A DNA stretch of 64,000 nt from Paenibacillus riograndensis SBR5 (GTDB lineage: Bacteria > Bacillota > Bacilli > Paenibacillales > Paenibacillaceae), in the NCBI RefSeq assembly GCF_000981585.1, contig NZ_LN831776.1:7259216-7323215 (forward strand), in the 5' to 3' direction. Shown in pieces: positions 5,886-17,908 of this stretch. Under the pieces are notes generated by a model, which saw only the letters and a program-made list of their open reading frames with translations, ran no database searches and was not told the DNA's origin. Each line of letters begins with the position of its first letter. Position 1 is the first letter of the stretch. A program made the position numbers and the translations under genes.

Positions 5886-6029
5886 AGCCTGAGGTGTACG
5901 CACCGCAAGTCTAAGGTGGACGCGCAGCTAGCTAAGATGAATGTGAAAGCACAACAAGTTAAGGTGGACGCGGAGCTAGCTAAGGTGGCGCACGACAAGC
6001 TAAGTCCTGATAGAACTTAGCTTGTCGTG
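5886..6029. repeat. Degenerate ~24-bp tandem repeat ending in a 15-bp perfect hairpin
   Basis: Two units at 5912-5936 and 5960-5984 (TAAGGTGGACGCG...CTAGCTAAG) match at 24 of 25 positions, with weaker copies before, between and after them. The last unit runs into a hairpin whose arms CACGACAAGCTAAGT (5991-6005) and ACTTAGCTTGTCGTG (6015-6029) are perfectly complementary around 9 nt. There is no T-run, so the hairpin is not a classical terminator, although it does follow the esterase gene. Confidence 0.8.
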
Positions 6030-6145: not shown

Positions 6146-6327
6146 GGTGGAAAAAGTATCATTAATTGGCTTGAGCATCAAGCAGCTCGGCTGGTTAAGT
6201 GGAAAAAGTATCCCTATTTCAGCACATTTCGCTCCGGATATGGGAATATCGCAGAATTAAGTTCCCTTATTCCACTTAATCCTCGGGAATGTTGATTTCT
6301 GAGGAATTTAAGTTTCCTTTTTCCACT
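6146..6327. repeat. Intergenic element with direct and inverted GTGGAAAAAG motifs
   Basis: GTGGAAAAAGTATC occurs at 6147-6160 and again at 6199-6212. The opposite strand carries related motifs at the far end (TTCCCTTATTCCACTT near 6261-6276 and TTTCCTTTTTCCACT at 6313-6327). The whole thus has inverted ends and an internal duplication and encodes nothing convincing. It looks like a non-autonomous intergenic repeat; its copy number elsewhere cannot be judged from this window. Confidence 0.65.
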
Positions 6328-6387
6328 CCAGGGCTTCCGACAACGGCAGTTCTGCCGTAGTTTCCGGACAGATTTTCTATATCATAA

Positions 6388-6436
6388 AAAAAACTGTCCT
6401 CCCCACATCCGGTGATGCGGTGAAAGACAGTTTTTT
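6388..6436 (-). terminator. Terminator downstream of argH (bidirectional)
   Basis: AAAAAACTGTC (6388-6398) and GACAGTTTTTT (6426-6436) form a stem; the intervening bases can extend the hairpin. On the minus strand it ends in a T-run and closes the arginine cluster. Confidence 0.75.
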
Positions 6437-6533
6437 GTTCATTTCGGCAATCTATCCAGCCGTATATCCAGCAATCTATTCAGAATCTATCCAGCAATCT
6501 GATCAGCAGTCTATTGTAGCCAATCGGCCTATT

Positions 6534-8029: not shown

Positions 8030-9265
8030 TTATTTGTTCGATTCTGCTACGCCCGCCGAAACCTTCAGACGCAGGGCATTCAGGCGGATAAAGCCTGTTG
8101 CATCCCCTTGATCATAGGCCTGGGTCGGGTCTGCTTCCATAGTAGCAATCTCCGGATTGTACAGGCTGACCGGTGACTTTACGCCGGCTCCGATAATGTT
8201 GCCTTTGTACAGCTTGACGCGCACGGTGCCGGTAACATTCTTCTGGCTTTCCTTCACCAGCGCCTGCAGCGCAAGGCGTTCAGGCGCGAACCAGAAGCCG
8301 TTGTACACGAGTGTGCTGTAGCGGGTAATCAGGCTGTCGCGCAGGTTCATCACTTCGCGGTCCATCGTGATGGACTCCATTTTGCGGTGGGCGGTGAACA
8401 GGATGGTTCCGCCTGGCGTTTCGTACACGCCGCGGCTCTTCATGCCGACAAAACGGTTCTCCACCATATCCACGCGTCCAATGCCGTGCTTGCCGCCCAG
8501 CTCATTCAACTTCTCCATGACCTGCAGTGGAGATAGCGGCTCGCCATTCAGTGCGACACAATCTCCCTTGAGGAATTCCAGCTCCAGGTATTCCGGCTGA
8601 TCCGGGGCATCCTCCGGCGCGTTGCTGAGGAGGAACATTCCCTTGTTCTCCGGTGCGCTTGGATCGAACCACGGATCTTCCAGCACGCCGCTCTCGTAGC
8701 TAATGTGCAGCAGGTTGCGGTCCATGGAATACGGCTTGGCCGCCGAGGCCTGAACCGGAATGCCGTTCGCTTCCGCATAGGCGATCATTTCCGCCCGGCC
8801 GGGGAACTGGCTGCGGAACTCTTCGAGCCGCCAAGGCGCAATCACCTTGATGCTTGGCGACAAGGCCGCCGCATTCAGTTCGAAGCGCACCTGGTCATTT
8901 CCTTTGCCGGTTGCGCCGTGGGCAATCGCCGTTGCGCCTTCCGCGATGGCGATGTCCACCATACGCTTTGCAATCAGCGGACGGGCGATGCTTGTGCCGA
9001 GCAGGTATTGGCCTTCATACAAAGCGCCCGATTGGAACATCGGGTAGATGAAGTCGCTCGCGAATTCGTCACGGAGATCATCGATGTAGACCTTCGACGC
9101 GCCGGTTGCGAGGGCTTTTTCCTCAAGGCCGTTCAGCTCTTCCTTTTGGCCGATATCGGCTGTAAAAGCAATAATCTCCGCATCATAGGTTTCTTTCAGC
9201 CATTTCAGGATGACCGAGGTATCCAGCCCGCCGGAGTAGGCGAGTACGATTTTTTCTTTTGGCAT
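8030..9265 (-). CDS. argG: Argininosuccinate synthase
   Basis: A 411-residue enzyme that joins citrulline and aspartate using ATP. The start is the ATG at 9265 ([18 protein letters not shown]), preceded by GAAAGGAAG; the frame stays open far upstream but that part is a translated repeat element. The P-loop of N-type ATP pyrophosphatases, AYSGGLDTS, is at residues 9-17. [10 protein letters not shown] and EFRSQFPGR are further conserved motifs. A 365-bp gap holding a folded repeat separates it from argF, so argGH may have its own promoter. Confidence 0.97.
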
Positions 9266-9337
9266 GGGGGTGCGACTTCCTTTCGTGTGGGGATATAGGA
9301 TGAACCCAGACAGGCGTGCAGATTCCGGTGCCCGGAC

Positions 9338-9471
9338 GCAGCTGCGTGAAATGTTTGGACTTCCGGCCGCTGTTGTCTCCAGATGTTTCTGATTATACCG
9401 CTTTGCGGATAACATCCGGAGACAAAGGCGGACGCATTCGCTCCTACAGTTCCAAACTTTCACTCCGCTGC
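9338..9471. repeat. Structured intergenic element, copy 1 (argF-argG gap)
   Basis: Nested inverted repeats fold 134 bp into one long hairpin: GCAGC (9338-9342) with GCTGC (9467-9471), GTGAAA (9346-9351) with TTTCAC (9458-9463), GTTTGGA with TCCAAAC, CCGC (9367-9370) with GCGG (9428-9431), and TGTCTCC-a-GATGTT (9374-9387) with AACATC-c-GGAGACA (9411-9424). An apical CCGC-ttt-GCGG tops it. Copies 2 and 3 share the loop sequences but have different paired arms. It is upstream of argG on the minus strand, within its likely leader. Confidence 0.85.
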
Positions 9472-9630
9472 TATGCACCGGAATCTAACGCTCAATACTA
9501 AGTTCAACCTATATAGTGTTTTATATAATATAAGACCAAGCAAGAGCCTTGCCTGATTTGCATGACCAATCCTGATTTACTCCAGATCGCTGAATACTCT
9601 TAGCTATAGCTTAGCCCGTGAATACGGTCC

Positions 9631-10599
9631 TTAGCCCATCAATGCCGCCATCAACGCTTTCTGCGCATGCAGGCGGTTTTCGGCCTGGTCGAAGATGACC
9701 GAATTCGGGCCGTCGATCACGCCGGTGCTGACCTCTTCCTCACGGTGAGCCGGCAGGCAGTGCAGGAACAGGTAGTCGCTCTTCGCGCCTTTGACCAGCT
9801 CCTCGTTGACCTGATAATCCTTGAACGCGGCCTCACGCGCGAGCTGCTCGGCTTCAAAGCCCATGCTCGCCCAGACATCTGTGTAGATTACATCGGCGTC
9901 CTGTACGGCTTCCTGCGGGCTGCGGGTAACCACGATTAACGCTCCGGTTTCCTTGGCAATCTCACGCGCCTCCGCAACAACAGCCGCATCCGGCTCATAG
10001 CCCTCCGGTCCGGCAACCGAGACATGCACGCCCAGCTTGGCACCGCCGATCAGCAGGGAATGCGCCATGTTGTTGCCATCGCCGATGTAGGCCAGCTTCA
10101 GGCCCTTCAGCTTGCCTTTATGCTCGTAGACGGTCTGGTAATCAGCCAGCACCTGGCACGGATGGGCCAGATCGCTCAGTCCGTTGATGACGGGCACCGA
10201 AGCATAACGGGCCAGATCCTCTACTTTGTCATGGCCGAAGGTGCGGATCATAATGCCGTCCAGATAACGGGACATGACCTGCGCCGTATCGCCGACGGTT
10301 TCGCCGCGTCCGAGCTGAATGTCATTTTTGCTCAGGAACAGCGCATGGCCGCCGAGCTGGTACATGCCCACTTCGAATGACACGCGTGTGCGGGTCGAGG
10401 ATTTTTCAAAAATAAGCCCAATCGTCTTGCCCTTCAGCGGCTGATAGACCTCCCCGCTTTTTTGCTTCCGCTTCAGCTCAATCGCCAAATCAATCAAATA
10501 CGTGATTTCCTCCGGGCTGTAGTCGTTCAGCTCCAGCAAATCACGGCCTTTGAGCTGCTGCGCGATTTGTTGTGCACCGCTTTTCACTTCCTGGCTCAT
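9631..10599 (-). CDS. argF: Ornithine carbamoyltransferase
   Basis: A 322-residue enzyme that makes citrulline from ornithine and carbamoyl phosphate. ATG at 10599 is chosen because GGGAGG lies 7 bp upstream and its first bases overlap the argD stop as ATGA. SSTRTRVSFE binds carbamoyl phosphate, HPCQVLADYQT and DVWASMG are conserved, and HCLPAHREEEV carries the catalytic Cys-Leu-Pro motif. Length is normal for an anabolic trimeric OTC. Coupled translation with argD is expected. Confidence 0.97.
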   Translation of the reverse strand: MSQEVKSGAQQIAQQLKGRDLLELNDYSPEEITYLIDLAIELKRKQKSGEVYQPLKGKTIGLIFEKSSTRTRVSFEVGMYQLGGHALFLSKNDIQLGRGETVGDTAQVMSRYLDGIMIRTFGHDKVEDLARYASVPVINGLSDLAHPCQVLADYQTVYEHKGKLKGLKLAYIGDGNNMAHSLLIGGAKLGVHVSVAGPEGYEPDAAVVAEAREIAKETGALIVVTRSPQEAVQDADVIYTDVWASMGFEAEQLAREAAFKDYQVNEELVKGAKSDYLFLHCLPAHREEEVSTGVIDGPNSVIFDQAENRLHAQKALMAALMG

Positions 10600-11882
10600 G
10601 AACCTGCCTCCCACTTTCCATTGTTAGCATAAGTATGAATGAGTTCCGAAAGGATGTCCACCGCCTGGTGGATCTCATCGGCGCTTACGTACAGGTTAGG
10701 CAGCAGCCGAATGACGTTGGGGCCGGCCTGCACGAACAGCAGCCCGCGCTTTTGTCCGGCCAGCACGATATCACCTACCGGTGCCGCGCACTCGATGCCA
10801 ATGAGCAGGCCTTTGCCGCGGATCTCCTTCACAAACGGCGTATCCGCCAGCTTGTCTCCGAGCAGTCCCTTCAGGTATTCTCCCATGTCGGCAGCACGCT
10901 GCGCCAAATTATCTTCCAGCATCGTTTCGATCGTCGCTTCCATTACCGCTGCGGCCAGCGGCGTTCCGCCGAAGGTGGACGCATGGCTGCCTGGACTGAA
11001 CGCCTCACGCAGGTATCCCTTGCCCAGCATGACACCTGCCGGGAAGCCGCTGGCCACCCCTTTGGCCAAGGTGAAGATATCCGGCTCAATGCCGTAATGC
11101 TGATGTGCAAACAGCTTGCCCGTACGTCCCATGCCGGTCTGCACTTCATCCACGATCAGCAGTAAGCCATGCTCTTTGCACAGCTCAACCACCGCATCCA
11201 GGAATTCCTGCTGCACCTCCAGCACGCCGCCTTCAGCGAGGACCATCTCCAGCATAATTGCTGCGGTGTTCCCGGAGATTGCAGCCTTCAGCGCCGAGAG
11301 ATCGTGCAGCGGCACAGTCTTGAAGCCTGCCGGAAGCGGCAGGAAGCCTTCTTTTACCTTTTGCTGTCCGGTAGCCGTCAGTGTGGCCAGAGTACGTCCA
11401 TGGAAGGACTGCTCGAACGTAATCACTTCATAGCGGCCCGTTCCCTTCACCTTCTGGTGATAACGGCGCGCCAGCTTGATCGCTGCCTCATTCGCTTCCG
11501 CCCCGCTGTTGCAAAAGAACACCTGATCTGCACAGCTGTTCGCTGTAAGCAGCGCAGCCACCCGGTCCTGTCCAGGAATGTGGAACAGGTTCGAGACATG
11601 CCACAGCGTATCAATCTGCGCCTTCAGCTTCGCGCCAACCTTCTCCGGTGCGTGTCCCAGACTCGTTACGGCCAGGCCGCACATAAAGTCCAGGTACTTG
11701 TTGCCCTGATCATCCCACACCCAGCTGCCCTTACCCTTAACCAGACTGATGTCGTATCTGGCATAGGACGGGAATACCGCACCCAGCTTGGCAGGAGCAG
11801 CCTCCTGAACCCCTGTTTCTGCTGAACGGTCCTGCGGTGCCCCTGTCAAAGAATCTTTGTCCGCTTGCGTAAGCTCACTCAT
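10596..11882 (-). CDS. argD: Acetylornithine aminotransferase
   Basis: A class-III PLP-dependent transaminase of 428 residues that converts N-acetylglutamate semialdehyde to N-acetylornithine. Key motifs are FCNSGAEANEAAIKLAR, FHGRTLATLTATGQ, VDEVQTGMGRTG and the PLP lysine in TLAKGVASGFPAG. The N-terminus is about 30 residues longer than usual and hydrophilic. GGGAGAG precedes the ATG. It overlaps argF by 4 bp. A 267-bp gap with structured repeat copy 2 separates it from argB. Confidence 0.95.
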   Translation of the reverse strand: MSELTQADKDSLTGAPQDRSAETGVQEAAPAKLGAVFPSYARYDISLVKGKGSWVWDDQGNKYLDFMCGLAVTSLGHAPEKVGAKLKAQIDTLWHVSNLFHIPGQDRVAALLTANSCADQVFFCNSGAEANEAAIKLARRYHQKVKGTGRYEVITFEQSFHGRTLATLTATGQQKVKEGFLPLPAGFKTVPLHDLSALKAAISGNTAAIMLEMVLAEGGVLEVQQEFLDAVVELCKEHGLLLIVDEVQTGMGRTGKLFAHQHYGIEPDIFTLAKGVASGFPAGVMLGKGYLREAFSPGSHASTFGGTPLAAAVMEATIETMLEDNLAQRAADMGEYLKGLLGDKLADTPFVKEIRGKGLLIGIECAAPVGDIVLAGQKRGLLFVQAGPNVIRLLPNLYVSADEIHQAVDILSELIHTYANNGKWEAGS

Positions 11883-11966
11883 TCTTAGTCACTCTCCCAC
11901 CATGCTGCTTCCGGCATTCCCGTCAGCGCTTGTTATTATATAAGTTGAACTTTAGTTTTACATTGT

Positions 11967-12119
11967 GGGGTATGGTCGTAACTACGGGGAATGTTTGGAC
12001 TTCCAGCCGCTGTTGTCCCCAGATTTCTTGATTGAACCGCCTTTTGCGGTTGAAATCCGGTGACAAAGGCGGACGCATTCGCTCTTCCAGTTCCAAACTT
12101 CCCCTCCGCACTTCTACCC
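11967..12119. repeat. Structured intergenic element, copy 2 (argB-argD gap)
   Basis: Same architecture as the copy near 9.4 kb, with different paired bases: GGGTA (11968-11972) with TACCC (12115-12119), GGGGAA (11986-11991) with TTCCCC (12099-12104), GTTTGGA with TCCAAAC, CCGC (12007-12010) with GCGG (12069-12072), TGTCCCC-a-GATTTC (12014-12027) with GAAATC-c-GGTGACA (12052-12065, one mismatch), and an apical ACCGC/GCGGT. The loop sequences GACTTCC and ACGCATTCGCTC are shared with the other copies. Confidence 0.85.
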
Positions 12120-12149
12120 TTTTATGAATTTTTTAGTTCATCTTATTAG

Positions 12150-12968
12150 TTATGAACGAATAATCCGTGTTCCCAGTTTTTCCCCCTGCAGCACCCGGCT
12201 AAGCACCCGGGGCTCCTTGCCGTCAACAATGACGACTTCGGACACACTGCCCTGGATGCAGTCGATCGCGGCACGCACTTTTGGAATCATCCCGCCATAG
12301 ATTTCGCCATTTTTGATTAAGTCTTCGATCTGCCCTACCGTCACAGACGGAAGCACGGTTTTGCGTCCGTCCAGGGTGCGCATAATGCCCGGCACATCCG
12401 TGACCACAATCATTTGGGGCGACCCGATAAAAGAAGCCACCGCACCCGCCGCCGTATCCGCATTAATATTGTAGCGCTGGCCCCCGGCATCTACGCCGAT
12501 CGGCGCGATCACAGGGATATAGCCCATCGCCAGAACACCCGCCACAATTTCTGCATTGACCTCAGTCACTTCACCGACCAGCCCCACTTCACCGCTATTG
12601 GCAACCAGCCGGGCCGTAATCAGCCGCCCATCCACACCGGATAAGCCGAGCGCCTGCCCTCCACTGCCTTGAATCCTTCGGACAATCGCCTTGTTGATGC
12701 TTCCCGCCAGCGTCATTTCCACCACATCCAGCACTTCCTCGGTCGTCACCCGCAAGCCGTTCACAAAGCTGCTCTCAATGCCAAGCTTCTCCAGATTGCC
12801 GGAAATCGCCGGTCCGCCGCCATGCACAATAACAGGCTGGGCACCGCTCAGCTGCAGCTCCCGCAAATCGTCAAAAAATGAATCCGGAAGCGCCGCCAGC
12901 GTACTGCCGCCACATTTCATAACGAACAGTCCGCCAGCCTTATGGTTCTCAACAGGTTCAAAAGTCAT
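12150..12968 (-). CDS. argB: Acetylglutamate kinase
   Basis: A 272-residue amino-acid kinase that phosphorylates N-acetylglutamate, the second step of the pathway. The N-terminal region has FVMKCGGS (phosphate-binding), followed by VIVHGGGPAIS, VTTEEVLDVVEMTLAG and NINADTAAGAVA in typical order. GGGAGGG lies about 10 bp before the ATG. The 14-residue N-terminal extension before FVMKCGG is unremarkable. It lies 40 bp after argJ and is part of the argCJB run. Confidence 0.96.
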   Translation of the reverse strand: MTFEPVENHKAGGLFVMKCGGSTLAALPDSFFDDLRELQLSGAQPVIVHGGGPAISGNLEKLGIESSFVNGLRVTTEEVLDVVEMTLAGSINKAIVRRIQGSGGQALGLSGVDGRLITARLVANSGEVGLVGEVTEVNAEIVAGVLAMGYIPVIAPIGVDAGGQRYNINADTAAGAVASFIGSPQMIVVTDVPGIMRTLDGRKTVLPSVTVGQIEDLIKNGEIYGGMIPKVRAAIDCIQGSVSEVVIVDGKEPRVLSRVLQGEKLGTRIIRS

Positions 12969-13008
12969 AGTATCGGTACCCTCCCAGTAAGCTCAGCCCA
13001 GCCGTCAA

Positions 13009-14241
13009 TCAGGTACGGTATGCGGCATTAATGCGCACATAATCATACGTCAGATCGCAGCCCCAGGCGGTAGCCTTGCCTTCTCCGTCAGCTAAAGCTA
13101 CGGTAATCCGCACGGTATCGCTTTTTTGCAAATAATGCAGAGCCTGCTCTTCATCAAAAGCTACCGGACGCGACTGTCTGAGCACCTCAATCCCGCCAAG
13201 TGAGATATCTACCCGTTCCGGGGATACCGGCACTCCTGCGCGTCCTACCGCCGCAATAATTCTGCCCCAGTTGGCATCCGCACCAAAAATCGCCGATTTC
13301 ACAAGACTGGAGCCGACCACTGTCTTGGCAATCGCCGCCGCAGCCTCATCATGCACTGCACCGTCAATCTGCACTTCAATCAGCTTCGTCGCTCCTTCGC
13401 CGTCACGGGCAATCGCCATAGCCAGACTCTTGCAGACATGTGTGAACGCAGCGGCAAAAGCATCCCAGTCCGCATGCAGCCGCGTCAGCTTTTCATTCCC
13501 GGCCAGCCCGCTAGCCATCGTCACCAGCATGTCATTGGTGCTTGTATCTCCATCTACCGTAATCATATTAAAAGTGGTGTTGGTCGCAGTACGCAGCAGA
13601 CTGAGCAGATCCTCGCCGTCAATCACAGCATCCGTGGTCATGAAGCCCAGCATGGTCGCCATATTGGGATGAATCATCCCCGAACCTTTGGCAGCTCCGG
13701 CGATGGTAACTTCCACTTCACCGACCTTTACTGTGACGCAGCATTCTTTTTTGACCAGATCTGTTGTTAAAATAGCCTGGCAGAACTCTTCCGCCCCGGC
13801 GGCTCCTCCATCCAGCTTCTCCGGCAGTCCGGCAATGCCGCTGCGCACACGGTCCATCTTCAGCAGTTCGCCGATTACACCGGTAGAAGCAACCGCGACG
13901 TCCAATTCATTCACCCCAAGCTCACGGGCAGCGGCCGCACGCATTTCATAAGCATCGGCTTCACCTTGTTCACCGGTACAGGCATTGGCATTCCCGCTGT
14001 TCACGATAACCGCCTGCAGCGTCGCGTTCGCCAGACTCTCCCGCGTCACCTTCAGCGGTGCAGCCTGGAATACATTCGTTGTATAGACCGCAGCCGCTGT
14101 CGCAGGCACCTCGCAGAGAATCGCCGCCAGGTCGTTGCGCTCTGTTTTTTTGAGTCCGCAGTGCAGCCCGCCAGCCGTAAACCCCTTAGGGGTTGTGACA
14201 CTTCCGCCCTCAACGACGGTAAAAACCTGTTTCTCACTCAT
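13009..14241 (-). CDS. argJ: Bifunctional ornithine acetyltransferase / N-acetylglutamate synthase
   Basis: A 410-residue ArgJ that transfers the acetyl group from N-acetylornithine to glutamate and so recycles it. Typical motifs are PKGFTAGGLHCGLKK, VNSGNANACTG, DGDTSTNDM and KGSGMIHPNMATMLGF; the Thr of MATMLGF is the self-cleavage site that yields alpha and beta chains and becomes the nucleophile. No Shine-Dalgarno sequence is visible ahead of the ATG 21 bp after argC, so reinitiation from argC is likely. Presence of argJ and absence of argA/argE here indicate the cyclic pathway. Confidence 0.96.
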   Translation of the reverse strand: MSEKQVFTVVEGGSVTTPKGFTAGGLHCGLKKTERNDLAAILCEVPATAAAVYTTNVFQAAPLKVTRESLANATLQAVIVNSGNANACTGEQGEADAYEMRAAAARELGVNELDVAVASTGVIGELLKMDRVRSGIAGLPEKLDGGAAGAEEFCQAILTTDLVKKECCVTVKVGEVEVTIAGAAKGSGMIHPNMATMLGFMTTDAVIDGEDLLSLLRTATNTTFNMITVDGDTSTNDMLVTMASGLAGNEKLTRLHADWDAFAAAFTHVCKSLAMAIARDGEGATKLIEVQIDGAVHDEAAAAIAKTVVGSSLVKSAIFGADANWGRIIAAVGRAGVPVSPERVDISLGGIEVLRQSRPVAFDEEQALHYLQKSDTVRITVALADGEGKATAWGCDLTYDYVRINAAYRT

Positions 14242-14262
14242 TATAGTGTTGACCGCTGAAGC

Positions 14263-15318
14263 TTAAGGATACACAGGTGTGTAACCAAGACCGCGGGTTT
14301 CCTCCCATCCCATCATCAAATTCAGGTTCTGAATCGCTTGCCCGGCTGCGCCTTTAACAATATTGTCAATGACGGATACAACCGTTACCCGTCCTGTACG
14401 GGCATCCGTGGCAAAACCGATATCACAATAATTGGAGCCGCTGACCTCTTTGGTGGCTGGAAGCACACCCGCATCACGAACCCGCACATAAGGGCGTCCT
14501 GCATAATACTTACGGTATAAGTCCACAAAATCCTGCTCGCTGTACCCGCCACTCATCCCGGCATACATCGTGCTCATAATTCCCCGGGTCATTGGCACCA
14601 GATGCGTAGTGAACGTCACCGTCACCTTTTCTCCCGCGATCTCCGTCAGGGTCTGCTCAATCTCGGGAATGTGCTGATGCTTGTTGACCTTGTAGGTTTT
14701 GAAATTCTCGTTGATCTCGGCAAAATGGACCGTTAGACTCGTTCCCCGCCCTGCGCCGGATACACCTGATTTGGCATCGATAATAATGCTGTCAGGTTTA
14801 ATCCAGCCAGCCTGCAGCGCCGGAACCAGGCCCAACAGGGTAGCTGTCGGATAACAGCCCGGATTCGAGACAAAATCCACTCCAGCCGCACGCTCCCCGA
14901 ACACCTCGCATAATCCGTATACAGCCTGCTGCAGATACGCTTCAGGCGGAGCCGGATGCTTATACCACTGCTCATACTCCGCGCCGTCCTTCAGCCGGAA
15001 GTCACCGGACAGATCAACCACCTTCAGTCCTGCCTCCAGCAGCTGCGGCACCAGCTTGGCACTTACCCCCGAAGGCGTTGCAGTGAACACCACATCTGCC
15101 CTCCCGGCGATCTCCGCCGCGTCCACTCCATCCAGATTGCGCTGCACAATCCCCGTTAAATGCGGAAAACCCTCCTCAATAGGCGCACCGGCGCTTGAAG
15201 AGGAAATCACCGAAGTAATCTCTATATCAGGGTGGCCCTGCAGCAGCCTGATCAGCTCCACGCCCCCATATCCCGTTGATCCCACAATTGCCGCTCTCAG
15301 CTTATCAGTCACTGTCAT
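14263..15318 (-). CDS. argC: N-acetyl-gamma-glutamyl-phosphate reductase
   Basis: A 351-residue NADPH-dependent reductase, third step of the pathway and first gene of the operon. The start is ATG 15318, with AGGAAG 5 bp upstream; the longer open frame is not used. GSTGYGGVELIRLL is the nucleotide-binding loop near the N-terminus, and VSNPGCYPTAT contains the catalytic cysteine. The upstream region carries a promoter with ARG-box-like operators, in line with control by an ArgR/AhrC arginine repressor. Confidence 0.96.
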   Translation of the reverse strand: MTVTDKLRAAIVGSTGYGGVELIRLLQGHPDIEITSVISSSSAGAPIEEGFPHLTGIVQRNLDGVDAAEIAGRADVVFTATPSGVSAKLVPQLLEAGLKVVDLSGDFRLKDGAEYEQWYKHPAPPEAYLQQAVYGLCEVFGERAAGVDFVSNPGCYPTATLLGLVPALQAGWIKPDSIIIDAKSGVSGAGRGTSLTVHFAEINENFKTYKVNKHQHIPEIEQTLTEIAGEKVTVTFTTHLVPMTRGIMSTMYAGMSGGYSEQDFVDLYRKYYAGRPYVRVRDAGVLPATKEVSGSNYCDIGFATDARTGRVTVVSVIDNIVKGAAGQAIQNLNLMMGWEETRGLGYTPVYP

Positions 15319-15335
15319 CCCCGCTTCCTGCTTTT

Positions 15336-15401
15336 CATGAATAAATGAATACCGCTCTTGGAAATATGTATTATTATACGACTGAATTAATATAAATACA
15401 A
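15336..15401 (-). promoter_or_regulatory. argC promoter with two ARG-box-like operators
   Basis: Read on the minus strand, TTGTAT (complement of 15396-15401) and TATAAT (complement of 15373-15378) are separated by 17 bp. An ARG-box-like TGAATTAATATAAATA (15383-15398, + strand) lies in the spacer. A second, CATGAATAAATGAAT (15336-15350), lies in the leader and resembles the AhrC box form CATGAATAAAAATTCA. Repression by arginine-bound ArgR is inferred. Confidence 0.6.
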
Positions 15402-15448
15402 CATGTAACGTCAAGTTTATTCTGCACAGATCCCCGAAGCATTTCGCC

Positions 15449-15481
15449 AAAAAAAGAAGCAGCCCCCTAAGGAGACTGCAC
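15449..15481 (-). terminator. Terminator overlapping the end of the yitT-like gene
   Basis: On the minus strand GCAGTCTCC-ttag-GGGGGCTGC is followed by TTCTTTTTTT. The stem includes the last codons and stop of the upstream YitT-family gene, so it separates that gene from argC. Confidence 0.75.
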
Positions 15482-16360
15482 CTCTCTTTTGAACCCTTCA
15501 CCCAGCACCTCATGCGCCTCCGTGATAATCACAAACGCCCCCGGATCCACAGAACGCACTAACGCTTTCAGCCGGGTGATCTCATTTTGCCCTACTACCA
15601 CCATAAGCACCGTACGGCTATCCCCGGTATACCCGCCTTGCGCGTTCAGCTTGGTCAACCCACGGTCCAAATCGTTCAAGATCGCCTGTGAAATCTCTTC
15701 CGTCTGGTCGGAAATGATATACGCTACCTTGGTTGTGCTGAAGCCCACCTCCAGCGCGTTGATCACCTTACCTGTTACAAACAAGCCGATCAAGGCATAC
15801 ATCGCTTGTTCCATGCCCAGTACAAAAGCAGCCAGCGTAATTACCGTACCATCCAGCAGCACGACAGACAGCGAGAAGCTGAACCCCGTAATCTTCTGAA
15901 TGATCTGCGCCAAAATGGACAGTCCCCCCGTAGACCCGCGCCCGCGGAATACCAGCCCAAGCCCAAGCCCCACACCAATCCCTCCGTAAATGGAGGCAAG
16001 CAGCGGATTTGTGGTCGGAACCGGCCCATCCTTCGTCAGAAAAATAAACAGCGGCAGCACAAAGCTGCCCAGCAGCGAACGCAGGCCATATTGCTTGCCG
16101 AGGATTACCACCCCCAGGATAAAGAGCGGAATATTCAGCGCCCACTGGGTGAACGCCGGTTCAGCTCCCAGCCAGGCCTCCGCGAGTACGGACAAGCCGG
16201 ACACCCCTCCGGAAGCGATTCTGTTCGGCAGGAAAAACAGATTGAAAGCCAGAGCCGTAATCAGCGAGCCCAGCAGAATCAGCAGAATATCCACCGTATG
16301 GCGCAAGGGCCCATTGAGTGGAATTAACGGGGGTTTATTGCGTGAATTCATTTTTTGCAT
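15467..16360 (-). CDS. YitT family membrane protein (DUF161/DUF2179)
   Basis: About 297 residues from ATG 16360, which has AAGGAG 12 bp upstream. Five or six hydrophobic segments (for example DILLILLGSLITALAFNLFFLP) fill the first 210 residues with the YitT hallmark ASGGVSGLS, then GRGSTGGLSILAQI. The C-terminal ~80 residues form the soluble DUF2179 domain (VAYIISDQTEEISQAI, GGYTGDSRTVLMVVV). The molecular function is not established. It is transcribed alone between prfB and argC. Confidence 0.92.
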   Translation of the reverse strand: MQKMNSRNKPPLIPLNGPLRHTVDILLILLGSLITALAFNLFFLPNRIASGGVSGLSVLAEAWLGAEPAFTQWALNIPLFILGVVILGKQYGLRSLLGSFVLPLFIFLTKDGPVPTTNPLLASIYGGIGVGLGLGLVFRGRGSTGGLSILAQIIQKITGFSFSLSVVLLDGTVITLAAFVLGMEQAMYALIGLFVTGKVINALEVGFSTTKVAYIISDQTEEISQAILNDLDRGLTKLNAQGGYTGDSRTVLMVVVGQNEITRLKALVRSVDPGAFVIITEAHEVLGEGFKREVQSP

Positions 16361-16414
16361 GCCGGTTGTTTTCTCCTTAACATTATACTTAAAGCATAGA
16401 CTTCCTAATCTTCT

Positions 16415-16452
16415 CAAAAAAATTCCTACACCTCCGAAGACGCGTAGGAATT
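16415..16452 (-). terminator. Terminator of prfB
   Basis: AATTCCTAC (16421-16429) pairs with GTAGGAATT (16444-16452); on the minus strand the stem is followed by TTTTTTT. It lies 13 bp past the prfB stop. Confidence 0.85.
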
Positions 16453-16464
16453 ATCATGATGCCC

Positions 16465-17578
16465 TTATTCAGCTTCCGTCTTAATCTGGCTGCGCAAATA
16501 TCCATCGATAAAAGCGTCCAGATCGCCGTCCATCACTGCTCCGACATTTCCGGTTTCCACGGAAGTACGGTGATCCTTTACCATACTATAGGGATGGAAT
16601 ACATAGGAGCGGATCTGGCTGCCCCAGGCAATATCCGATTGTTCTCCTCGGATTTCATCAAGCTGCTGCTGCTGCTCCTGCAGCTTGCGCTCATACAGCT
16701 TGGAACGCAGCATCTTCATCGCCTGTTCCCGGTTCTTGATCTGCGACCGCTCATTCTGGCAGGTGACCACCACGCCGGTGGGCAGGTGAGTGATACGCAC
16801 CGCAGAGTCGGTTGTATTAATATGCTGACCGCCCGCGCCGCTGGCACGGTACGTATCAATCTTCAGGTCCTCCGTACGGATTTCCACCTCGACATCATCC
16901 GTAATCTCAGGCACCACATCGCAGGATACGAAGGAGGTATGCCGCCGGCCTGATGCATCGAACGGGGAGATACGCACCAGCCGGTGCACCCCTTTTTCCG
17001 CCTTCAGATAGCCATAGACATTGTAGCCTTTGATCAGCAGAGTAACACTCTTGATCCCGGCTTCGTCCCCCGGTAAATAATCCAGGACTTCTACCTTGAA
17101 GCCGCGTTTCTCCGCCCAGCGGGTGTACATGCGCAGCAGCATTTGGCCCCAGTCCTGGGACTCCGTTCCGCCAGCGCCGGGATGCAGCTCCAGAATCGCA
17201 TTGAGCTTGTCATACGGCTGGTTGAGCAGCAGCTGCAGCTCGAATTCATCGACCTTGCCGCCTACACTGCGGATGGTCTCGGCAACTTCTGCCGCCAGCT
17301 CCGCATCGCCTTCCTCATCTGCCAGCTCTACCATCATCGCTGCATCGTCATATTCCTGCTGCAGCTTCTCGTACTGATCCACGGATGATTTCACCGCATT
17401 CATCTCGGCAATTACACCTTGCGCTTTTTCGGGATCATCCCAGAACCCGGGTGCTGCCATCTTTTCTTCGAAGTTCGCGATCATTTCCTGCTTGAGATCT
17501 AAGTCAAAGAGACCCCCTAAGGTCAGTTAGTTTCTTGCCTATTTCACGCAGGTCCTGCTTAACATTAGCATCGATCAT
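16465..17578 (-). CDS. prfB: Peptide chain release factor 2, with programmed +1 frameshift
   Basis: RF2 recognises UGA and UAA. The first frame starts at ATG 17578 and reads 24 codons to an in-frame TGA (17506-17504) in the context CTT-TGA-C. The SD-like AGGGGG (complement of 17513-17518) sits just upstream, the usual autoregulatory frameshift signal. After the +1 shift the frame continues from 17505, giving about 370 residues. SPF (RISPFDASG), which recognises the stop codon, and the catalytic GGQ ([11 protein letters not shown]) are present. Naive gene calls would start at an internal ATG and lose the N-terminus. It is downstream of secA, as in Bacillus. Confidence 0.96.
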
Positions 17579-17691
17579 GTGGAGTCACTTCACCTTTCAA
17601 AATAAAATGATTGCGCCGGGGCGGCTTATTGGACATAAAGAGGGGGAATAAAAGGCCATCTGAGAATCCCGGAACTTCAAATACTTCATAA

Positions 17692-17844
17692 GGTGATGGC
17701 CGTAACTGCGGGGAATGTTTGGACTTCCGGCCGCTGTTATGATTGAATTTCCTGATCTAAGCCGCTGGACGCGGTAGAAATTCAATCATAAAGGCGGACG
17801 CGTTCGCTCCTCCAGTTCCAAACTTCCCCTCCGTTACTTTCACC
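17692..17844. repeat. Structured intergenic element, copy 3 (secA-prfB gap)
   Basis: Third copy of the folded element. Paired arms are GGTGA (17692-17696) with TCACC (17840-17844), GTAAC (17702-17706) with GTTAC (17833-17837), GGGGAA with TTCCCC, GTTTGGA with TCCAAAC, CCGC (17731-17734) with GCGG (17794-17797), and TATGATTGAATTTC (17738-17751) with GAAATTCAATCATA (17777-17790), a perfect 14-bp stem unrelated in sequence to the arms of copies 1 and 2. The loop sequences GGACTTCCGG and ACGCGTTCGCTCC are conserved. Confidence 0.87.
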
Positions 17845-17908
17845 ATATTTTTTATATTCAAGTTCCAATCCTTCTCTGCTTGAATCATTCACCCAAGTCT
17901 TAATGCCC

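Follow-up and report, generated by a model that had tools for sequence, protein, structure and literature searches.

The closest known system to the element described here is RUP/IS630-Spn1 of Streptococcus pneumoniae. The element is a folded intergenic repeat with three copies in a 64,000-nucleotide stretch of the Paenibacillus riograndensis SBR5 chromosome (NZ_LN831776.1, positions 7,259,216 to 7,323,215; hereafter, the window). RUP insertion duplicates TA. The passages on RUP in one study of pneumococcal repeats describe a short, interspersed, high-copy folded repeat of 107 bp whose ends resemble those of a resident IS630-family element, with 60.9% of copies on the leading strand, a bias said to mirror that of coding sequence (PMC3049150). 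Compared with RUP, the Paenibacillus element is longer (~210 bp), has a conserved asymmetric core, covaries massively, extends across an order and shows, in the host genome, an 86% polarity that is independent of flanking genes. Correia/NEMIS, ERIC and Nezha are miniature inverted-repeat transposable elements (MITEs) that target TA; they live in other hosts and have different ends and sequences. The passages on these elements place them in the same class of folded bacterial MITEs (PMC3049150). BOX and SPRITE of S. pneumoniae are also described there as folded interspersed repeats, often clustered or nested (PMC3049150, PMC10969869). They differ in that the terminal inverted repeats (TIRs) of BOX are likened to ISSpn2, and 60.8 and 63.3% of BOX and SPRITE copies are on the leading strand; the 61-63% range of BOX, RUP and SPRITE is described in those passages as mirroring coding bias (PMC3049150).

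The Paenibacillus element is of an already known kind, a mobile folded repeat and IS630 MITE. What is new, as far as we searched, is a conserved asymmetric core within freely varying stems across an order, a strong gene-independent fork polarity in the host genome, and long retention at some loci. Elements of the IS200/IS605 type use an HUH transposase on single-stranded DNA and have neither TIRs nor target duplication. They and Tn7 with TnsE are described as having an orientation set by replication, through the lagging-strand template or clamp contact; such orientation is documented there for Tn7 and IS608 and said to hold for several insertion sequence (IS) families (PMC5371812). The Paenibacillus element differs from IS200/IS605 in having TIRs, TA duplication and a DDE transposase. 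We rejected membership in the IS200/IS605 or REP/RAYT type on the grounds of the duplicated TA and the IS630/DDE partner; no search was aimed at HUH or RAYT genes. Our overall explanation, which we hold to be probable, is that the elements are mobile, folded IS630-type MITEs with a conserved core and a fork-linked orientation.

Ends, insertion sites and the IS630 partner

A first-pass annotation of the window had pointed out three copies of a structured repeat, and a sequence check found them where it had put them. The extents it gave were too short: when the best copies from the same genome were aligned, the element reached from CTATATAAGTTGAACTT to AAGTTCAACTTATATAG, ~210 bp, and its hidden Markov model (HMM) is ~214 bp long. 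The window copies, W1 to W3, and their parts are as follows.

9293..9514, plus strand: whole element W1, core 9338-9471 (nhmmer and TIR alignment)
W1 ends: diverged TIRs, GATATAGGATGAAC and AAGTTCAACCTATATAG (TIR alignment)
9354..9435, plus strand: W1 conserved motifs, TTTGGACTTCCGGCCGCTGTT from 9354 and AAAGGCGGACGC at 9424-9435, with a variable inner hairpin between
11939..12146, plus strand: whole element W2, core 11978-12112, TA flanks at 11937-11938 and 12147-12148
11939..11952, plus strand: W2 left TIR, TATAAGTTGAACTT, near-identical to the end of the resident IS630 element
11994..12076, plus strand: W2 conserved motifs and inner hairpin, AAAGGCGGACGC at 12065-12076
12130..12146, plus strand: W2 right TIR, diverged (TIR alignment and comparison with relatives' sites)
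about 17671..17866, plus strand: whole element W3, core 17702-17837, ends degenerate (nhmmer)
17718..17801, plus strand: W3 conserved motifs and inner hairpin, AAAGGCGGACGC at 17790-17801

Each copy lies upstream of a minus-strand gene. From the open reading frames (ORFs) of the window, we take the junctions to be argG/argF (W1), argD/argB (W2) and secA/prfB (W3); in the last of these, the secA terminator lies on one side of W3 and prfB on the other, with W3 ~100 bp upstream of prfB. The short segments described as shared by the copies hold up: exact matches to TGTTTGGACTTCC occur in the window at W1, W2 and W3 and nowhere else, and so do those to AAAGGCGGACGC, three in either case. Among ORFs of at least 80 aa, one crosses W1 and is an upstream extension of argG; the element is non-coding. 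No stop interrupts the argG frame on its upstream side across W1 until a GTG at 9478 (window 8030-9478, 482 aa), and automatic annotation could wrongly stretch ArgG across the element.

The family is large. An exact two-motif pattern matched the 7.9-Mb genome 110 times, and the reversed-pattern control did not match at all. With nhmmer, at least 113 copies scored above 100 bits in the fetched stretches of the genome: 96 around listed matches, 4 control stretches and the window. These copies are not independent of one another, and 113 is a lower bound; the first look had yielded 181 candidates, of which 40 were scored. By HMM extent, 99 of the 113 run from TIR to TIR and 14, W3 included, have incomplete ends. 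Full-length copies carry inverted ends of ~17 bp of the CTATATAAGTTGAACTT type. The ends vary by subfamily (AAGTTGAACTT, GAGTGAACTT, AAACTGAACTT and others), and both ends of one copy often match.

A Pfam DDE_3 search of the host genome gave five matches, three of them IS630-family copies that are identical over about 1170 bp, with the ends CTATATAAGTTGAACTAAAG..CTTTAGTTCAAACTATATAG (boundaries by pairwise comparison). Their two ORFs scored 97.7 bits (just below the cut-off of 100) and 142.1 bits (above it) against the NCBIfam IS630 model. The IS630 copies and the full-length small elements share CTATATAAGTTGAACT-type ends, so that the relation of the element to this IS630 resembles that of RUP to IS630-Spn1. 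When the ends of 25 of the 80 fetched named IS630 relatives were inspected, 13 had TGAAC at both detected ends; the others had similar ends or ends that could not be made out. The inspected relatives came from Paenibacillus, Cohnella, Neobacillus, Priestia, Halalkalibacterium and Lysinibacillus.

A number of copies sit inside another repeat, which reads CCAAC-TA-GCACC when uninterrupted and CCAAC-TATATAA..TTATATA-GCACC when interrupted. In 42 of 42 exact matches, the intact form of this repeat shows the TA just once; insertion therefore duplicates TA. At the W2 site, 18 relatives were compared: the element is in place in three close relatives (L236-L238), the junction is short and empty in another three (L239, L240, L241), two have apparent decayed remnants (L242, L243), eight have diverged spacers with no clear element, and for two (G037, G038) the reading did not take in both flanks. 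The clearest empty site is L239, which reads CGCTTGTTATTAGTTATG. On these comparisons, W2 (argB-argD) is a recent insertion. The TIRs, the TA duplication, the empty sites and the matching IS630 element in the genome favor the non-autonomous mobile repeat that had been one of three options offered in the first-pass annotation. An IS630 transposase would bind the ends of the element in trans, then cut it and paste it into intergenic TA.

Distribution across the order and retention at old sites

A covariance model was built from 32 copies and searched in other genomes, a check that had been proposed for the repeat, and it returned many matches: the family was found in 241 of 296 genomes of the host's order, spanning 34 of 48 genera, and 55 of the 296 had no match under stricter filters. 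In a phylum-wide draw, 5 of 299 genomes were positive, all from the host's own family and the host among them. Six closed genomes of other genera had 114, 83, 43, 23, 22 and 9 model matches. In 27 copies from those genera hardly any sequence of the outer and inner stems is shared, and words like CGRYCGCTGTT and AAAGGCGRACGCT..CGCTYCT are still present in most. Rfam had no match in the window at the gathering score and none overlapping any copy even at E<=5, and we found no description of the family in the openly licensed PMC literature. A structured repeat that is very common across an order matches no Rfam entry, and a description of it did not turn up in the literature searched.

Other genomes also hold tandem duplicates of the element, ~200-270 bp apart (G126 C1:3242992/3243190 and 817898/818100; G245 C1:869964/870169; G059 C1:6156603/6156874). 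In some copies from several species (L018, L020, L022, L149, L153, L237, L238, L274, L276), an extra hairpin module of the GAAAGCTTTCC..GGAAAGC type replaces the AAAGG strand; in L201, which comes from a different genus, a hairpin resembling it lies a little further downstream.

Some sites are kept for long. All 30 fetched loci of the W1 junction (the host's own and 29 relatives) carry the element; they had been picked as the top BLAST matches to a query containing the element itself. In 44 of 100 genomes of the genus, the host's among them, a W1 alignment extends into the element core; in the rest it goes only as far as about argG. W3, queried from outside the element, is present at the same junction in 17 of 18 relatives. 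Its core is on average 83% identical to the window copy (13 of the 17), the adjoining 100 bases on the two sides are 64 and 70% identical, and random pairs are 51% identical. Judged by such comparisons, the argF-argG and secA-prfB copies are old. Some old copies, such as those upstream of argG and prfB that are kept in many relatives, have probably been domesticated. Two W1 orthologues (L158, L159) contain a full second element, which seems to have entered their inner part at a TA or close to one.

Pairing, covariation and the conserved core

The whole stretch between the two ends forms a single long, imperfect hairpin. Its asymmetric core is conserved, with CGRYCGCTGTT facing AAAGGCGRACGC..CGCTYCT, and the stems on either side of the core are almost free in sequence. 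The outer stem has the GTGAAA/TTTCAC and GGGGAA/TTCCCC pairs reported earlier and also a bulged T within its 13 bp (GTGAAA-T-GTTTGGA/TCCAAAC-TTTCAC in W1; GGGGAA/TTCCCC in W2 and W3). Each inner stem does have its own partner strand. The feature that had been read as a 3-nt internal loop, TGT opposite AAG, is really a T.G and G.A step, which is conserved, with a T-A pair after it. The three window copies fold with z-scores of -3.8 to -7.6 on both strands and beat all 200 shuffles.

The covariation suspected from three copies is strong in the wide alignment (A3). Across 93 distinct copies, 96.8% of 3153 cells were paired and double changes occurred at 29 of the 34 pairs. None of 500 shuffles reached any of the five measures, and slid structures paired in 33-59%. 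The A3 loci L171-L229 are the best model matches per genome, a choice that favors well-paired copies. The W3 set, whose query lay outside the element and whose 18 genomes were chosen by W1 similarity, was not selected that way: its 17 secA-prfB orthologues had double changes at 20 of 34 pairs (0 of 500 shuffles). Arms also preferred their own partner over a swapped arm, the inner arms in 94% of 98 own-genome copies and 28 of 28 W1-site copies, the outer arms in 86% and in 82% of 28, respectively.

The first-pass annotation had argued that the fold, not the sequence, is under selection. Pairing is indeed strongly kept; this is only one part of the picture, given that the core motifs are conserved in sequence too, that inner-stem modules differ as wholes among close relatives at one site and that G.U and A.C intermediates are rare. 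In the main alignment, 2980 cells were Watson-Crick, 16 G.T, 50 A.C and 47 other (n=3093, the conserved T.G pair excluded), and 470 double-change cells stood against 14 one-sided changes that kept the pair. At W3, the inner stem of L267 and L268, whose adjoining coding DNA is 93-97% identical, is wholly unlike that of the window, and the closest relative, L266, keeps the window's stem. The rare wobble and the whole-module differences mean that the covariation also fits copy-to-copy conversion or template switching. The passages on compensatory changes in PMC8794818 document template switching as one of their sources. Covariation could then be a by-product of DNA homogenisation (quasi-palindrome template switching or gene conversion) without any selection on the fold, an account that we regard as possible, at less than even odds. 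The excess of double over one-sided changes and the module differences at W3 favor it. Against it, the bulged T and the T.G/G.A mismatches stay uncorrected in most copies, nearly every module pairs, and the outer arms at W1 still favor their own partner. That the bulge and the T.G/G.A step persist further argues that recognition is conserved, not just pairing. Within the mobile MITE explanation, two processes would maintain complementarity, selection acting on the hairpin and an exchange of stem modules among many copies; the covariation may thus owe something, besides selection, to copies exchanging sequence or to template switching. Covariation is standard evidence for RNA structure, and a family whose covariation may come about at the DNA level would serve as a useful warning. 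The family is also a natural system in which to ask what share of stem covariation is due to selection and what share to template switching or gene conversion.

Orientation relative to the replication fork

We scored the orientation of the 113 host copies. The origin is presumably at the contig start, where we recognised dnaA, dnaN, gyrB and gyrA by eye, and the GC skew changes sign at 4.0-4.5 Mb. In 97 of the 113 copies the plus strand opposes fork movement (98 with a terminus guess of 3.975 Mb). Counted against:with the fork and sorted by neighbours (crude ORF calls), the copies were 54:6 next to leading-strand genes, 11:2 next to lagging-strand genes, 15:4 between convergent and 16:4 between divergent genes, with one unassigned. 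We rejected transcription as the cause of the orientation: copies at lagging-strand genes are still 11:2 against the fork. The minus strand is predicted to fold more stably in 93% (DNA parameters) and 96% (RNA parameters) of 141 copies; orientation in this genome is tied to replication in such a way that this better-folding strand lies on the lagging-strand template.

These data bear on a structured RNA made from the minus strand, for instance an mRNA-leader stabiliser or attenuator spread within a mobile repeat and selected at argG and prfB. We find this doubtful. The window agrees with it: as first described, the three copies share one orientation between minus-strand genes, and all are upstream of and co-directional with such genes. 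The minus strand is the better folder, W1 and W3 are retained, and wobble in A3 leans to the minus strand (A.C 50 versus G.T 16), as do the W1-locus rows (A.C 18 versus G.T 0 in 30 rows, including three other copies at those loci and two nested copies). Genome-wide, however, orientation follows the replication fork and is independent of flanking genes, which weakens the plain RNA reading that the first-pass annotation had listed. G.U is not so rare in ordinary RNA stems; here it is infrequent whichever strand is read (16 and 50 of 3093 cells). The six inner pairs of the own and W1-site copies lean the other way (608 Watson-Crick, 22 G.T, 10 A.C, 50 other mismatches; n=690), the A.C excess also fits a leading-strand C-to-T mutation bias, and Rfam has no match. 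Wobble counts were also tried as a test of the RNA strand: A3 leans to the minus strand and the smaller count to the plus strand, and mutation bias confounds both.

The same polarity invites a second alternative, a host chromosome element, that is, a DNA hairpin or protein site for replication, repair or segregation that selection holds in one orientation, with the IS630 ends as a secondary means of dispersal. It can draw on the 97 of 113 fork-polar copies irrespective of genes, the 241 of 296 genomes of the order, W3 in 17 of 18 relatives, an asymmetric core kept while the stems vary freely, and nearly strict Watson-Crick pairing, as in DNA. We nevertheless think it unlikely: the six genomes of other genera range from 9 to 114 model matches, 55 of the 296 genomes have none, genome G245 is non-polar, W2 is missing in close relatives, and the candidate site has no known binding protein. 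Quite unlikely, too, is the version in which the core is a replication-polar hairpin site used by host chromosomes of the order and dispersed and renewed by an IS630 transposon; it would act either as a fork-associated signal or, on the lagging-strand template, as a DNA hairpin bound by protein. If true, a mobile element would supply an orientation-coded chromosome element.

On the MITE explanation, insertion would be coupled to the passing fork, for example via the beta clamp or the single-stranded lagging template, and the polarity would perhaps be sharpened by later loss of wrong-way copies. By age, 65 of 78 copies with a near twin (identity >=0.92) were against the fork, 12 of 14 at 0.88-0.92 and 20 of 21 older ones. 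Purging with age was set aside as the cause of the polarity, as these counts show no more than a trend (p=0.15); they do not separate insertion bias from selection.

We extended the analysis to other closed genomes, with the contig start taken as the origin (checked in the host genome). The set comprised six of the first ten genomes (G059, G066, G081 and G087 left out) and two of the six from other genera, for which 55 of 114 and 55 of 83 matches were listed; all counts are among listed matches. Polarity was clear in G126 (48/55, shuffle maximum 42) and just past the shuffles in G040 (28/34, best fit 29, shuffle maximum 28).

Several results weigh against the mobile, fork-oriented MITE. The older copies were not significantly more polar (20/21 versus 65/78, p=0.15). 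Polarity did not exceed the shuffle maximum in G055 (17/20), G008 (16/20), G026 (13/16), G046 (11/15) and G054 (25/43, best fit 33, shuffle maximum 33), and it was not seen in G245 (36/55, null mean 35). The transposase genes of the three IS630 copies (L231, L232, L233) are co-directional with the fork (plus at 3.6 Mb, minus at 5.2 and 5.5 Mb), so these copies oppose the majority orientation of the elements if the left ends correspond (n=3). MITEs are typically AT-rich according to a review (PMC10969869), and the core GC of strong matches here was 0.41-0.57, mostly ~50%. A related transposase half was found (E<=1e-8) in just 3 of 12 element-bearing genomes, all three of the host's own genus, and in none of the four genomes of other genera. 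In most element-bearing genomes the mobiliser has thus either escaped identification or been lost, and we do not retain universal mobilisation by the host's one IS630 transposase. Among the 27 flanked copies from six other genera, the end motif was recognised in one (L201); the others have inverted arms without it. Finally, the evidence for movement is comparative, from insertion sites.

With more than 100 copies in some genomes, the family offers a natural system for the question of how transposon orientation couples to the replication fork. A second long intergenic repeat, which contains TTTTTCCAACTAGCACCTGCGAAGAA and serves as an insertion target of the MITE (fetched copies L161-L170), is fully polar: all 20 copies up to 4.05 Mb share one strand, and all 22 from 4.24 Mb onward are on the opposite one. 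About 6 of the 10 fetched copies lie between convergent genes (crude ORF calls), and a possible relative is found in the window at ~6180-6430. Short tandem arrays occur downstream of argH, at window 5949-6004 (21-bp units) and 6447-6514 (12-bp units).

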